Positions 32,534 through 47,173 of a DNA stretch of 64,000 nucleotides are shown here, in pieces. The position numbers and the translations under genes were made by a program. Under the pieces are notes generated by a model. That model was not told the DNA's origin and searched no databases. It saw only the letters and a program-made list of their open reading frames with translations. The DNA is from Monosiga brevicollis MX1 (taxonomy: Eukaryota; Opisthokonta; Choanoflagellata; Craspedida; Salpingoecidae). Within the stretch, counting starts at the first letter, position 1. The number at the start of each line of letters is the position of its first letter. The stretch lies in assembly GCF_000002865.3 (NCBI RefSeq), contig NW_001865045.1, forward strand, positions 871,594-935,593, written 5' to 3'.

Positions 32534-35500
32534 ATGGATGACTACGTGTTCGCTGCCGAATCAGGCAGCGTGGAAGATCTGCGCTCGATCTTGAGCCATT
32601 TTGACCGACGCCTAGAAGTTGACCAACGCGATGGCACTGGCTACGGCGCGATTCACTATGCAGCTTCGGCTGGCCAAGCAGAGGTGAGGCGCGATCGGCC
32701 ACATGGCGCCTCAAGTCTGCATGCAGCCTCCCCTGATCTGCTGCGTCTAAATGTCTCTCTGTTTTGATCTATACCCTTGCAGGCCCTCGCCGTTCTCCTG
32801 GAGTTTGGCGGTGATGTGAACCTTCTCAATACACAGTGCGTTCATGTGCCCCTCCTTCCTTGTGCAAGGCGCTGCCTCGGCTGCGATCCAACCACGTTCC
32901 CGGCTCATGCTTGAGGTATCCCATTCTTGTTTGCTTCGACTTTTTCCCTTTGTAGAAAGGGTCAGACGCCGTTGCACTGTGCCTGTAACAGCTGCCACCT
33001 GAACGTGGTGAAAGAAATCTTAAAGCATCGTGAGGTGAGAAAACGTGTCGCTTGGGCAAGAACTCGTAGCGATTTGAGCCGATGGCGACTTTGAAGCTTC
33101 AACTTACCTTGCTTGTTCCGTCGTGGCTTGTGTACCAATTACTAGAGCATCAATTCCGTCAACGCCGTTACACGCAAGACAAAGGCGTCTCCCCTTCATT
33201 GTGTCGCTGTGTGCTCAAAGCCGGTCTGTAGTGGTGTTGACGTGTCCTTGTCCGTGCCCGTCCCGTGCCCTTTCCCGCATCTGTTTTCGTTGACATCCGC
33301 AAATCATGCACTATCACCAAGCAAAATCTCCGCTTTTCTCACTGGTTTCTCTTTTGCCTGACAGGTGGCCCCTGCCATTGCCCGGCTCCTCGTCGAGGCT
33401 GGTGCGCTCTGTGATGCGTGAGTAGCTTCTACTACGCCCGTCCCGCTAGCTTGGTCCATACCTTTTTTTCGTCTGCTGATATTGCTGGTATCGGAATGTA
33501 GGCAAGACACGACTGGTCACACACCCCTGGCTCTAGCGTGCCAACAAGGTACTTGATCTTTGAGCTGCCCGGAGCCGCCCCCATCTGAGACGTGGATGCT
33601 GACCACACGTGTTGTTAGGACGCTGCCCGAGTTTGGTAAAAATGCTCTTGCAGCTTGGTGCCAACCCCAACTCAGTCAACCGTGATAATGTCGCCTGCAT
33701 CCATCTTGCGGCTGTCGGAGGCAACGCCGGTATCCTGATGGCATCTATGCTTGGTCTTGATGCGTGGCGAGTGCAAACGAGACTGATGTTTGTACGCACT
33801 TTCTTGTTCGCCCTGTCGTGCAGAGATCGTCAGCCTGCTATGCCAGGCTGGGGCAACGATTCCCGACGGCATGGTTGCCAAGAACTCTCCACCGGTGCGT
33901 CAGCACATTTGTTAATCGCGATTGTTGTGGGTGGTTCTGCACTGCCCATGGTCACGACTCATTCAGGTCTTTCCCTTTGTCAAACAGCCGCCCATCCTTC
34001 TTGCAGCTCATCACGGCCACGCAGGGGCCGTACAGGCACTCTTGACAGCTGGCGCCCACCCCGATGCAACCGACCTTCGCGGCCATCGTGCGTTGCACAA
34101 GGCCGCGCGGGCCGGACACGTCCCGTGCGTTGAGGTACTTCTTCGTGGCAAGGTACGACGGCACAACCAAAGCCTCGGACATCAAGCTCCAAAGTTTCAT
34201 CTTGACTTGAATTTGGGTGTTTGAATCTGATGCTCTTTCTTTCCCGTTACTGTACAAACTCCCTCGGATGCAGGCCAACCCGAACGCGACGGATAAGAAC
34301 AACAACACACCGCTGACTTACGCCTCAGACATGGGACATCCCGGGATCTGTTCCCGACTGTTGCGCGCCGGAGCGCAAATCTCCATCGCCTCCACAGCAT
34401 CTCAAGGAAATCCACTGCATGCCGCAGCGCGCAATAGTATGTGATAATGGGGACAGCATCACTTCTACAGAATGTCGCTGCTCTCCATGGACGTTCATCG
34501 CGGGCTTGTTCAACTTGACATCACGTGCAGCTATGACTTTTTCTTACAAACTCCTTTGTGCTGGCCAATGTAGAACGCAACAAGGTTGTTCAAGTTCTGG
34601 TGCAAGAGGCTAGCCGCGATGACTTGGACATTAACGCCGCCGACAAGAATGGGTACACGGCGCTGCATCTCGCAGCCCTCAACGGTGACGTGGCTACCTC
34701 TCGCGTGCTCGTGCAGCACGGTGCCGATACGACCCGACGCAACAAACGCGGCCGCACCCCATCCCAGGAAGCCCAGCATGCCAAACACGTGCAGCTTGCC
34801 AATTTACTTGGAGATGCGGCTCGTCTGCTGGACGAGCCTGTCTTGGGGGCGTCGACACCCACGCCTGCGCAGCTCCCTCGCACATCATCTCAGCGTCTGC
34901 CCCAGCGCCGTTCTGTCCGCCACTCCGCCAGCGCAACCCAGGCAAGACCAGGTAGCATGGGCCCAGGAGGACTCACGGCTGCCAGCTTGGGCCGAAACTC
35001 ACTGCGCCGTACGACCAGCAATCCCAATGGACCACGACAATCCTTGCGCCGAGCCAACAGCTCTTCAACTCCCAGCTCTTCCGCTCCTACCGTGTCATCC
35101 GATGTGAGTGCCTTGCCGTCTTTGGACCCTGCGTACCTGCAGCAGCAACTGGCACAAGCACAGCAAAGTGCCAGTGCAATGAGCGAACGCGCCACGCTGC
35201 TGGCCGCTTTCAATCAGCTGGCCCCAGTCGGTCGCCAACACTCAGCCAACGCCTCGCGCGCTGCCGTCAATGCTCGCAAGCAACGCTACCGTGACATCGT
35301 TGCATATGATCACACCCGCGTGAGCCTTGCAGCAGCTGGCGGCCACCTTGGCTCTGACTACATCAATGCCAACTATGTGGTGGGCTACGAAAAGGAAAGA
35401 GCCTACATTGCTTCTCAAGGTCCATTGCCCGACACGGTTGGGGACTTTTGGCGCATGGCCTGGGAACAAACCTCGCGAACCATTGTCATGGTGGCTCAAG

Positions 35501-37979
35501 TGCGCGAGAACAACCGTGTCAAGTGCGAGCTATACTGGCCAGCCGTTGATCACTCGGCTACGTACGGCCCATTGATGGTCTACGGGCGACGCGAAGAAGT
35601 TTTGTCCCCCAACGTGACGCGACGTTTGTTTGAAATCCACCACCAAGACGAAGACCGCGTGCAAGAGGTGGTACACCTACAAATGACCACGTGGCCGGAC
35701 CATGGTTCCCCTCGCAACCCCGAGGCCTTTTTGGAGCTCCATCGTCGCTTCCGAGAGGCACAAAGGAATGCACGCAACTCACGCTCAGGGCCGGTGGGGC
35801 TGCCTATAGTACACTGCAGCGCTGGTGTTGGACGTTCTGGCACCTTTATCTGTTTGGACACGGTCTTTGAAACGCTGCTGGCAGGTCGTGACCCGGTCGA
35901 GCCGCTGGCCATTATCAGCCGCCTGCGCAATTGTCGCAATTTCATGGTCCAGGCCGTGGATCAACTCGACTTTATCTTCCGGGCGATTCCTGTCATGATC
36001 CAACAGTTGCTGGCCGATGCCCAAGCACAAGCCGAGCGCAAAGCCAATCCACCCCAACCTGCTTCTCAGCCGGATTCGACAAATACCATGGAGTCACTCT
36101 CGGAGCAGGAACAGTTTGAGTTGGCGCTTGCCATGTCACTTAGCGATACAACTGGTGCCGAAGAACCGGCCGGTGCCTCAACGGAAGGGCTGTCCGTGAC
36201 GTCAAAGGCGGACTCGTTACCAGTAACAGCACAGCTGATTGAGCTGCCCCGTCATTATCTGGTCTACTACGTTGGCTCCCAAAGAGTCAAGCGCGATCGT
36301 GGCCAATCTGTTGTCACCAATGCCCTGACCGCGGTCATCAAACGGGCGAAGGTACTATCCGCATTTCAACAACCCATTGTTTAGCCGGCTCTTTCATCAA
36401 AGCTTTCTTCCTCTTTCTCCTTGGCTCACCTCATCTTGGCTTGTTCTGCCATGCTGTGCCAGGCTTTTAAACAACTCAATCTACGAGTCGACCAGACTGG
36501 CATTGAGCTCTTGGAGCTTGGGCAGCCGATGGGACTCTTGCATAAAATTAACCTCATCAGCTACTTTGAGGTTGGGGCTTTGCCCGACCCCCTGCGAGTC
36601 ATGTGCAAGCAATTGCCTGCCAATCTCAAGGCGCCAGGCTTCACCGCCTTCATCAGCCATGTTAAGGACCGCAATGAATCTGTATGCCATTGTTTCATCA
36701 ATGCAACCATGGAACAAACCGAGGAGACGCGTTTGGCCATCTCCGAAGCCTTAACGCAAGCTTCAGCTGCTCTTGGTCGCCGCTATCAGCCCGTTGCTGC
36801 TCTTGCGGAGGTATCTCCCTGCCACCCCGGACCCTCGTTCACATTACCCACATTGAGCTACCAAAAGTCTCCAATAATGTTGGACTCATCGGGCCTGTCA
36901 ATGCGTAGGATGATTTGGAACTCGCTATGCAACTCTCCCTTGCTGAGGCCGAGTCTGGCGCTAGTTCCACAAAGCAGGATGAGACGGAGGAGGAACTGCA
37001 ATTGGCTCTAGCTATATCTCAAAGTTTGGCAGAGCAGCAAGGCTCTGCCAGTGCCAGTGCCAGTGCCAGTGACAGTGCTAGTGCCAGTGCCAGTGCCAGC
37101 GCCAGCGCCAGTGCCAGTGCCAGTGCCAGTGCCAGTGCTAGTGCCAGTCATTCCGAAGCCAGCTTCAGTGCTGTTCAAGGTGGTCAAGATGGCCAATGGG
37201 ACTCTTCAGGCAATACTACCTCTGCATCAAAACTTACAACCGCTTACACTACTCAGCTGAATGGTCGTGATGGGCGCCTCGCATCTACGGCTGCCGGCTC
37301 CAAAGCTGCCCCGTCCCGTCGTAACCCATTTGACATGCCCCAGCGCCAGCCCTCAGCATCTACCTCCACTTCGCTGTCAACAACGTCAACCAAGCTTATC
37401 ACGACGTCCCCGTCCAACCCGTTTGCCTCTGATGCAGCCCAGACAGCAGCAACTGATGTGGCGGTGACAGCAACCACGACCCGCACCATGCTGTCCTTTG
37501 GTGGGGCAGAGCTTGCGGGCGTAGACGATGGCATGGGCGTCACCCTGGCTGATAACGAGGACTACATGCCTACGCTGGAAAATTACAACACGAGCACAGA
37601 CGTTGGAGCTGGTGCAACAGCTGCTGCCTCCCAACTTGCTGAGCTTGAGCTCGAAGGTCCAGACACAAGCGACTCTGGCGGCCATATCCGCACAGAAGCT
37701 GAAAAACTCATCTTGGAAGCACAGGTTAGTGCGTGGGCAAGCTGCACCTTAGCTTGGCTCCAGAAGACGCACCGTCTCATGTTTGTCTGATTGTTTATTT
37801 GGTTTTTTGTTGTTTGAAAAAATGTCTAGGCTAAATTTCGCGCAGCGAGGTCGGAGAGCTGCTCCTCCGATCGGATGGAAAATCCTGCCACTCCACCCCA
37901 AACAGGTGTCTTCGGCTCGCCACAAGCCGTTGCTGCTGCTGTGGGCGTGCAGCATTTGGAAGATGAATCCAGCGCCTAG
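32534..37979 (+). CDS. Ankyrin-PTP-UIM-PTB-UIM protein tyrosine phosphatase
   Basis: Fourteen exons close in frame to 1,360 residues: 32534-32683, 32783-32835, 32956-33034, 33146-33223, 33365-33417, 33502-33548, 33619-33729, 33824-33894, 33967-34152 (or from 33988), 34274-34436, 34574-36351, 36463-36810, 36909-37724 and 37830-37979. Residues 1 to about 420 hold roughly ten ankyrin repeats (TPLHCAC, TALHLAALNGD). A basic Ser/Arg linker follows. The classical PTP domain (about 560-805) has the pTyr loop KQRYRDIVAYD, SDYINANY, the WPD loop TTWPDHGSP, HCSAGVGRSG with catalytic Cys745, and QAVDQLDF as Q-loop. All catalytic residues are present. UIM-like helices lie at about 841-857 (EQFELALAMSLSD), at the start of exon 13 (DDLELAMQLSLAE) and just after (EEELQLALAISQSL). 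Between the first and the second lies a PTB/PID domain (about 888-1039; YLVYYVGSQRV). The tail has an Ala-Ser repeat and is otherwise disordered. Function is inferred: dephosphorylation of tyrosine on ubiquitin-tagged cargo. Confidence 0.93.
37046..37149 (+). repeat. In-frame GCCAGT hexamer repeat coding (Ala-Ser)n
   Basis: About seventeen tandem copies of a six-base unit, GCCAGT with occasional GCTAGT, GACAGT and GCCAGC, lie within exon 13 of the phosphatase gene. They follow the third ubiquitin-interacting motif. The unit keeps the reading frame, so length changes would only lengthen or shorten an Ala-Ser linker. Confidence 0.9.

Positions 37980-38071: not shown

Positions 38072-47173
<9,102 letters not shown>

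Follow-up and report, generated by a model that had tools for sequence, protein, structure and literature searches.

The tyrosine phosphatases Sts-1 and Sts-2 (UBASH3, TULA) carry a ubiquitin-binding domain of their own, a UBA, and in the part of PMC10252698 drawn on here they regulate activated receptor kinases and endocytosis; the EGF receptor is a presumed substrate of Sts-1, whose effect on this receptor is described there as independent of its UBA (PMC10252698). HD-PTP (PTPN23) is a protein with a protein tyrosine phosphatase (PTP) domain that is connected with the sorting of ubiquitylated receptors by ESCRT and, in the portion of the source used, binds ESCRT proteins through Bro1. In members of the ANKRD13 family ankyrin repeats are followed by several ubiquitin-interacting motifs (UIMs), which bind Lys63-ubiquitin, and the family is linked to EGF receptor endocytosis in the excerpt of PMC10732073 considered. 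Here we describe a gene of the choanoflagellate Monosiga brevicollis MX1 that shares parts with each of these systems. It lies at positions 32534 to 37979 of a 64,000-nucleotide stretch of contig NW_001865045.1 (hereafter the window, in whose numbering all coordinates are given). Our results favour reading it as one spliced gene that encodes ankyrin repeats, a classical PTP domain, a phosphotyrosine-binding (PTB/PID) domain and three UIMs.

To our knowledge, neither Sts-1, HD-PTP and ANKRD13A nor the PTB-bearing kinase HMTK1 of M. brevicollis has this set of modules. Sts proteins consist of UBA, esterase, SH3 and PGM phosphatase domains, whereas the Monosiga protein has a classical Cys PTP, UIMs, a PTB domain and ankyrin repeats. 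Tensins have a PTEN-like domain of the PTP superfamily, a C2, an SH2 and a PTB domain in one chain, without UIMs. The pairing of a PTP-superfamily domain with a PTB domain is thus shared with tensins, and the statement of the initial annotation that no animal PTP with PTB and UIM modules was known needs this qualifier. In a Pfam scan of the whole protein at E up to 1 we found no UBA, SH3 or PGM domain of the Sts type, no Bro1 domain and no tensin-type PTEN-like PTP, C2 or SH2 domain. The ANKRD13 family has, as far as we know, neither phosphatase nor PTB domain, and it has a conserved middle domain of its own with no catalytic domain before the UIMs; the Monosiga protein differs in having a PTP domain, and the ANKRD13 middle domain is not listed in its Pfam scan. 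Because the protein falls outside each of these families, it may at most work like Sts-1, HD-PTP and ANKRD13A. With Numb and ARH it shares a PTB domain recognised by a profile that includes both, and with Hrs and Eps15 an Hrs-like double-sided UIM; we know of no catalytic phosphatase domain in any of these four adaptors.

Gene model and order of the modules

The locus had been introduced as one in-frame gene. A single gene is what we find as well, in frame only after splicing of 13 introns, so that 'one spliced gene model' is the better description. Its main features are the following.

32534..37979, plus strand: whole coding span, 14 exons, 1353 amino acids, one open frame once 13 introns are spliced
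32534-32683, 32783-32835, 32956-33034, 33146-33223, 33365-33417, 33502-33548, 33619-33729, plus strand: exons 1-7
33824-33894, 33988-34152, 34274-34436, 34574-36351, 36463-36810, 36909-37724, 37830-37979, plus strand: exons 8-14
32534..34803, plus strand: ankyrin-repeat region, residues 1 to about 400, exons 1-11; Pfam PF12796 and PF00023
35269..35988, plus strand: classical PTP catalytic domain, residues 556-795; PF00102
35692-35700, plus strand: WPD of the PTP domain
35815-35817, plus strand: catalytic-signature Cys738 of the PTP domain
36100..36153, plus strand: UIM1, residues 833-850; PF02809 16.8 bits, strict consensus
36232..36774, plus strand: PTB/PID domain, residues 877-1020, split by intron 36352-36462; PTB profile 30.3 bits spliced
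36805..36953, plus strand: UIM2, residues 1031-1047, split by intron 36811-36908; Pfam fragment and consensus
36981..37037, plus strand: UIM3, residues 1057-1075; two overlapping registers; 2d3g match

The reading frame starts with the ATG at 32534 and its stop codon ends at 37979. All 13 introns (70-141 nt) have GT..AG ends and the spliced frame is open over 1353 codons; since the exon ends were picked by reading for GT-AG and frame, both properties are partly there by construction. The order of the modules is ankyrin repeats, classical PTP, UIM, PTB, UIM, UIM and a tail with two NPF motifs. The four kinds of module and their order had been proposed from the letters alone, and Pfam, PTB profiles and motif counts bear them out.

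It is very improbable that two or more adjoining transcripts have been joined on paper here. What speaks for such an artefact is that the exon ends were set by reading. Against it, the 13 GT-AG introns restore a single frame, and several of them fall inside modules. The intron before 34574 interrupts an ankyrin repeat, and a 38-residue piece that bridges exons 10 and 11 reaches 22.4 bits, above the PF00023 cut-off of 21.1. Intron 36352-36462 splits the PTB domain and intron 36811-36908 splits UIM2. With the 12-row PTB profile the two unspliced frames score 9.1 and 13.1 bits, as compared to 30.3 bits when they are joined. The breaks feared by the initial annotation, between 36351 and 36463 or before 34574, would therefore cut the PTB domain and an ankyrin repeat, respectively. 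A single transcript is favoured because introns interrupt the ankyrin repeat, the PTB domain and UIM2, and this argues for the ANK-PTP-UIM-PTB-UIM-UIM modules belonging to one gene.

Catalytic domain, PTB domain and UIMs

In the Pfam scan PF12796 reaches 179.3 bits, PF00023 matches nine stretches and PF00102 scores 237.6 bits over residues 556-795 (cut-off 20.9). The PTP motifs KQRYRDI (residue 559), DYINANY (585), WPDHG (697) and HCSAGVGRSG (737, with Cys738) are present, as is the Q-loop MVQAVDQ at residue 781; the HCx5R loop, the WPD Asp and the Q-loop Gln of a classical PTP are all found. The catalytic signature of the domain is intact, as the initial annotation had it, and phosphatase activity is predicted. 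Among solved structures in the Protein Data Bank (PDB) receptor PTP sigma is the best match and LAR is also close, with 43.5% identity to the D1 domain of sigma. These receptors have two PTP domains (two matched stretches) and are transmembrane, whereas the Monosiga protein has a single PTP domain and predicted cytoplasmic readers. When compared with 20 other PTP loci of the same genome, the domain shares 41.4% identity over 239 aligned positions with the paralogue that scores highest in bits.

Support for a PTB-like domain comes from profile tests. The hhalign probability is 89.4 against four PTB domains and 91.7 against seven (maximum of 300 shuffles, 4.2). In HMMER a 7-row PTB profile gives 27.7 bits, the best of 5000 shuffles being 7.3 bits, and the 12-row profile gives its 30.3 bits over the whole domain with E 3.7e-6 for a PDB-sized search. 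Scored inside the whole protein, the domain reaches 21.4 bits with the 7-row and 24.5 bits with the 12-row profile. As to specificity, all 35 PDB sequences matched by a 4-row profile at E up to 1 are known PTB proteins, Numb and ARH being rows of the profile itself. An NPxY-type sequence is the putative ligand. A PDB search with the PTB segment alone returned two matches at E about 0.04, both OSR1 kinase chains, which are not PTB domains.

Three UIM-like motifs are supported by motif counts. The strict consensus (an acidic run, then hydrophobic-x-x-Ala-x-x-x-Ser-x-x-acidic), which was written down after the motifs had been seen, hits residues 796-1125 three times; at least two hits were obtained in 3 of 20000 shuffles. 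Over all open frames of the window (63489 residues) there are five hits. Three of these are the UIMs, a fourth is at the start of the ankyrin region and the fifth is a minus-strand hit. The key Ala and Ser are conserved in all three motifs. UIM3 fits the consensus twice, in overlapping registers at 1062 and 1064, as in the double-sided UIM of Hrs, a type that binds two ubiquitins according to the part of PMC11520951 used. At E up to 10 the UIM2-UIM3 stretch has matches to two PDB chains. One is 2d3g (17.4 bits, E 0.047), whose Hrs UIM aligns with UIM3; the other is AN1-type zinc finger protein 2B, 4xkh (14.6 bits, E 0.4), which is matched by the stretch as a whole. The motifs look able to bind ubiquitin. 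The whole-protein Pfam scan reports a single UIM with 10.9 bits, under the cut-off of 21.

Tail and linker

Two NPF motifs stand in the C-terminal tail, a number that none of 20000 tail shuffles reached. Several endocytic adaptors carry NPF motifs. The features of the tail are listed below.

37046..37148, plus strand: TGCCAG array, 17 copies, in frame, encoding a Ser-Ala run (spacer)
37323..37331, plus strand: NPF motif 1, residues 1171-1173, possible EH-domain ligand
37416..37424, plus strand: NPF motif 2, residues 1202-1204
37545..37598, plus strand: acidic tyrosine-bearing stretch LADNEDYMPTLENYNTST with possible phosphorylation sites

Ankyrin region and PTP domain are joined by a Ser/Arg-rich linker that contains RRTTSNP (residues 468-474), which by consensus would be a basophilic-kinase and 14-3-3-like site.

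Other loci in the genome

The genome searched comprises 39.5 Mb in 57 contigs. It contains exact matches to stretches of both published cloning primers of M. brevicollis HMTK1 (PMC3082566), which lie about 1.5 kb from each other on one strand of a single contig, in keeping with this species; the 3' stretch is found once in the genome and the 5' stretch twice. PTP exons match the genome 83 times, and grouping by eye gives about 39 places, the gene described here included; 10 kb were taken around 20 of the 38 others. At these 20 places there are no strict UIM-like hits: together with the window, 362153 residues yield the same five hits. A stricter count with three acidic residues gives zero hits anywhere and misses the gene's own UIMs too. 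With the 12-row PTB profile the best frame at the 20 places scores 8.3 bits, below the 13.1 and 9.1 bits of the gene's unspliced frames; with the 7-row profile one frame, at locus L033, scores 8.7 bits and exceeds the gene's own exon-11 frame (6.4 bits). All 13 UIM and all 13 PTB matches in the genome are more than 100 kb away from any PTP match, a weak result as the same searches missed the UIMs and the PTB domain of the gene itself. A search with PF08416 gave no match, its controls being silent as well, and the protein of exon 12 has no relative among the viral contigs compared.

The genome encodes EH domains (six matches), Cbl_N (one) and VHS domains (four matches, of which three are above the cut-off). 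Therefore the domains of the partners needed for an endocytic reading are encoded.

One region (L019, G000:C54:1586127-1587282) combines a UIM and a VHS match, both on one strand and separated by about 1 kb, which is what an Hrs- or STAM-like gene would show. Tandem PTP domains in a single open frame of 4334 codons are found at L001 and L002 (G000:C4:35331-36974).

Proposed function and alternatives

We tentatively propose, at somewhat less than an even chance, that the protein is a soluble phosphatase kept on ubiquitylated, NPxY-bearing cargo at endocytic sites, where it would end the signal during sorting. One soluble protein would then be a phosphotyrosine 'eraser' with two readers of its own. 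The ankyrin repeats would bind a protein partner and the PTB domain would dock onto an NPxY-type tail of a receptor or adaptor. Three UIMs, one of them double-sided, would provide ubiquitin avidity, so that the enzyme dwells on doubly marked cargo. The NPF motifs in the flexible tail could bind EH-domain scaffolds at sites of clathrin or of early endosomes, and the PTP domain would there dephosphorylate the receptor or adaptors, ending the signal while sorting proceeds. These binding events, the catalysis and the site of action are what we infer from the sequence. A role in endocytic sorting was already suggested by the initial annotation; the Hrs-like registers of UIM3, the two NPF motifs and the EH, Cbl_N and VHS matches add to it, and the function itself stays at the level of a proposal. 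As a precedent in the same species, many NPxY-type peptides were ligands of the HMTK1 PTB domain, with far stronger binding of one of them if phosphorylated, and the domain was proposed to direct its kinase to substrates (PMC3082566, in the part drawn on).

A number of observations weigh against this proposal. Pfam gives no PF00640 or PF08416 match for the PTB domain, neither in the whole protein nor in fragments, and the 4-row PTB profile gives 19.2 bits in two pieces, E 0.01. In the last PTB helix Leu1013 takes the place of a conserved Phe, which is present in 10 of the 11 rows of the profile covering this column, and an insert of about 16 residues precedes the last strands. Single-sequence AlphaFold models are too low in confidence to be informative (pLDDT 46 for exon 12 only and 38 for residues 500-916), and Foldseek with the exon-12 model, equally uninformative, found unrelated folds and no PTB domain among the best 50 of 1157 rows. 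UIM fragments stay below the PF02809 cut-off of 21 (UIM1 16.8 bits, UIM2 and UIM3 together 18.3 bits). A motif scan of the protein found no clathrin box, DPF/DPW or FxDxF, and a genome search with the PTB-UIM segment matched its own gene only (3 matches at E up to 10).

Among the alternatives, the one that ranks first accepts the architecture and places the substrate in the endocytic or ubiquitin machinery itself (adaptors, kinases, a p97-type unfoldase) instead of in receptors; the PTB domain would bind independently of phosphotyrosine and the ankyrin repeats would pick the substrate. We consider this unlikely, though well worth weighing. Many PTB domains of the Numb and Dab kind bind without phosphotyrosine, and Numb and ARH are among the rows of the profiles that recognise this PTB domain. 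In the cited parts of the sources, ANKRD13A, with ankyrin repeats and UIMs, binds Lys63-ubiquitin through the UIMs (PMC10732073), and some peptides bound the HMTK1 PTB domain without clear phosphotyrosine dependence (PMC3082566); the one NPxY peptide bound much more strongly in its phosphorylated form argues the other way. Next comes an ankyrin-repeat phosphatase whose PTB domain and UIMs are degenerate or serve other partners, so that ubiquitin and NPxY reading is unused. The Pfam scores of the UIMs below threshold, the PTB domain without any Pfam match and the change from Phe to Leu in its helix all fit this, but the key Ala and Ser are kept in all three UIMs, both registers are kept in UIM3 and the PTB profile scores lie far above those of shuffles, and we find it quite improbable. 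The gene-model artefact discussed above is last in this order.

Returning to the soluble phosphatase on ubiquitylated cargo, a more far-reaching form of the proposal can be stated, which we regard as possible and rather doubtful. The protein would act as a coincidence detector in one chain, removing phosphate from tyrosine only at places marked by both ubiquitin and an NPxY tail. It would be an independent, non-animal solution to the task of Sts-1 and HD-PTP that arose when a classical PTP was shuffled into an endocytic adaptor of the ankyrin-PTB-UIM type, and catalogues would have overlooked it because its PTB domain and UIMs are below Pfam cut-offs. A choanoflagellate is a one-celled relative of animals. 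A phosphatase with ubiquitin and PTB readers of its own would suggest that, outside animals, the shut-down of receptors in endocytosis came to be built into one molecule, and the gene offers a directly testable construct.

Place among known phosphatases

The protein probably has a new architecture of a classical PTP; the gene itself may already be catalogued. Phosphatases of M. brevicollis were reportedly catalogued in 2008 and later. Our literature search, which did not reach the catalogues of Manning 2008, Pincus 2008 and Suga 2014, found no description of the protein among the titles and abstract openings covered. As stated in the part of PMC3082566 considered, the phosphotyrosine system of choanoflagellates is large and combines domains in unusual ways. 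The profile search that the initial annotation had suggested gave a mixed outcome: ankyrin repeats and PTP are above Pfam cut-offs, the UIMs are below and the PTB domain has no Pfam match, yet the custom PTB profile finds it. Routine annotation would probably read ANK-PTP only, because ankyrin repeats and PTP pass the cut-offs strongly and the PTB domain and UIMs fail, and for the latter reason the full architecture may also be missing from phosphatase catalogues. As the PTB domain and UIMs show here, half of the logic of a protein can go unseen when profile cut-offs are applied.

Additional observations

PTB-bearing frames at four other loci of the genome (L009, L011, L013 and L015, with minus-strand loci read as reverse complement) contain GNPF, in three cases, or DDPF, in the fourth, shortly after the last PTB helix. 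In L011, L013 and L015 an apparent start of a kinase domain, seen by eye, follows the PTB domain and the NPF or DPF, and L011 lies between the matches of HMTK1 primers. The NPF or DPF shared in the PTB-kinase linkers of this set might be functional.

For four neighbouring minus-strand open frames, taken unspliced, Pfam gives nothing at E up to 0.001. About 1.3 kb 3' of the stop codon, at window positions 39289-39425, there is a perfect CA dinucleotide array of 68.5 copies.

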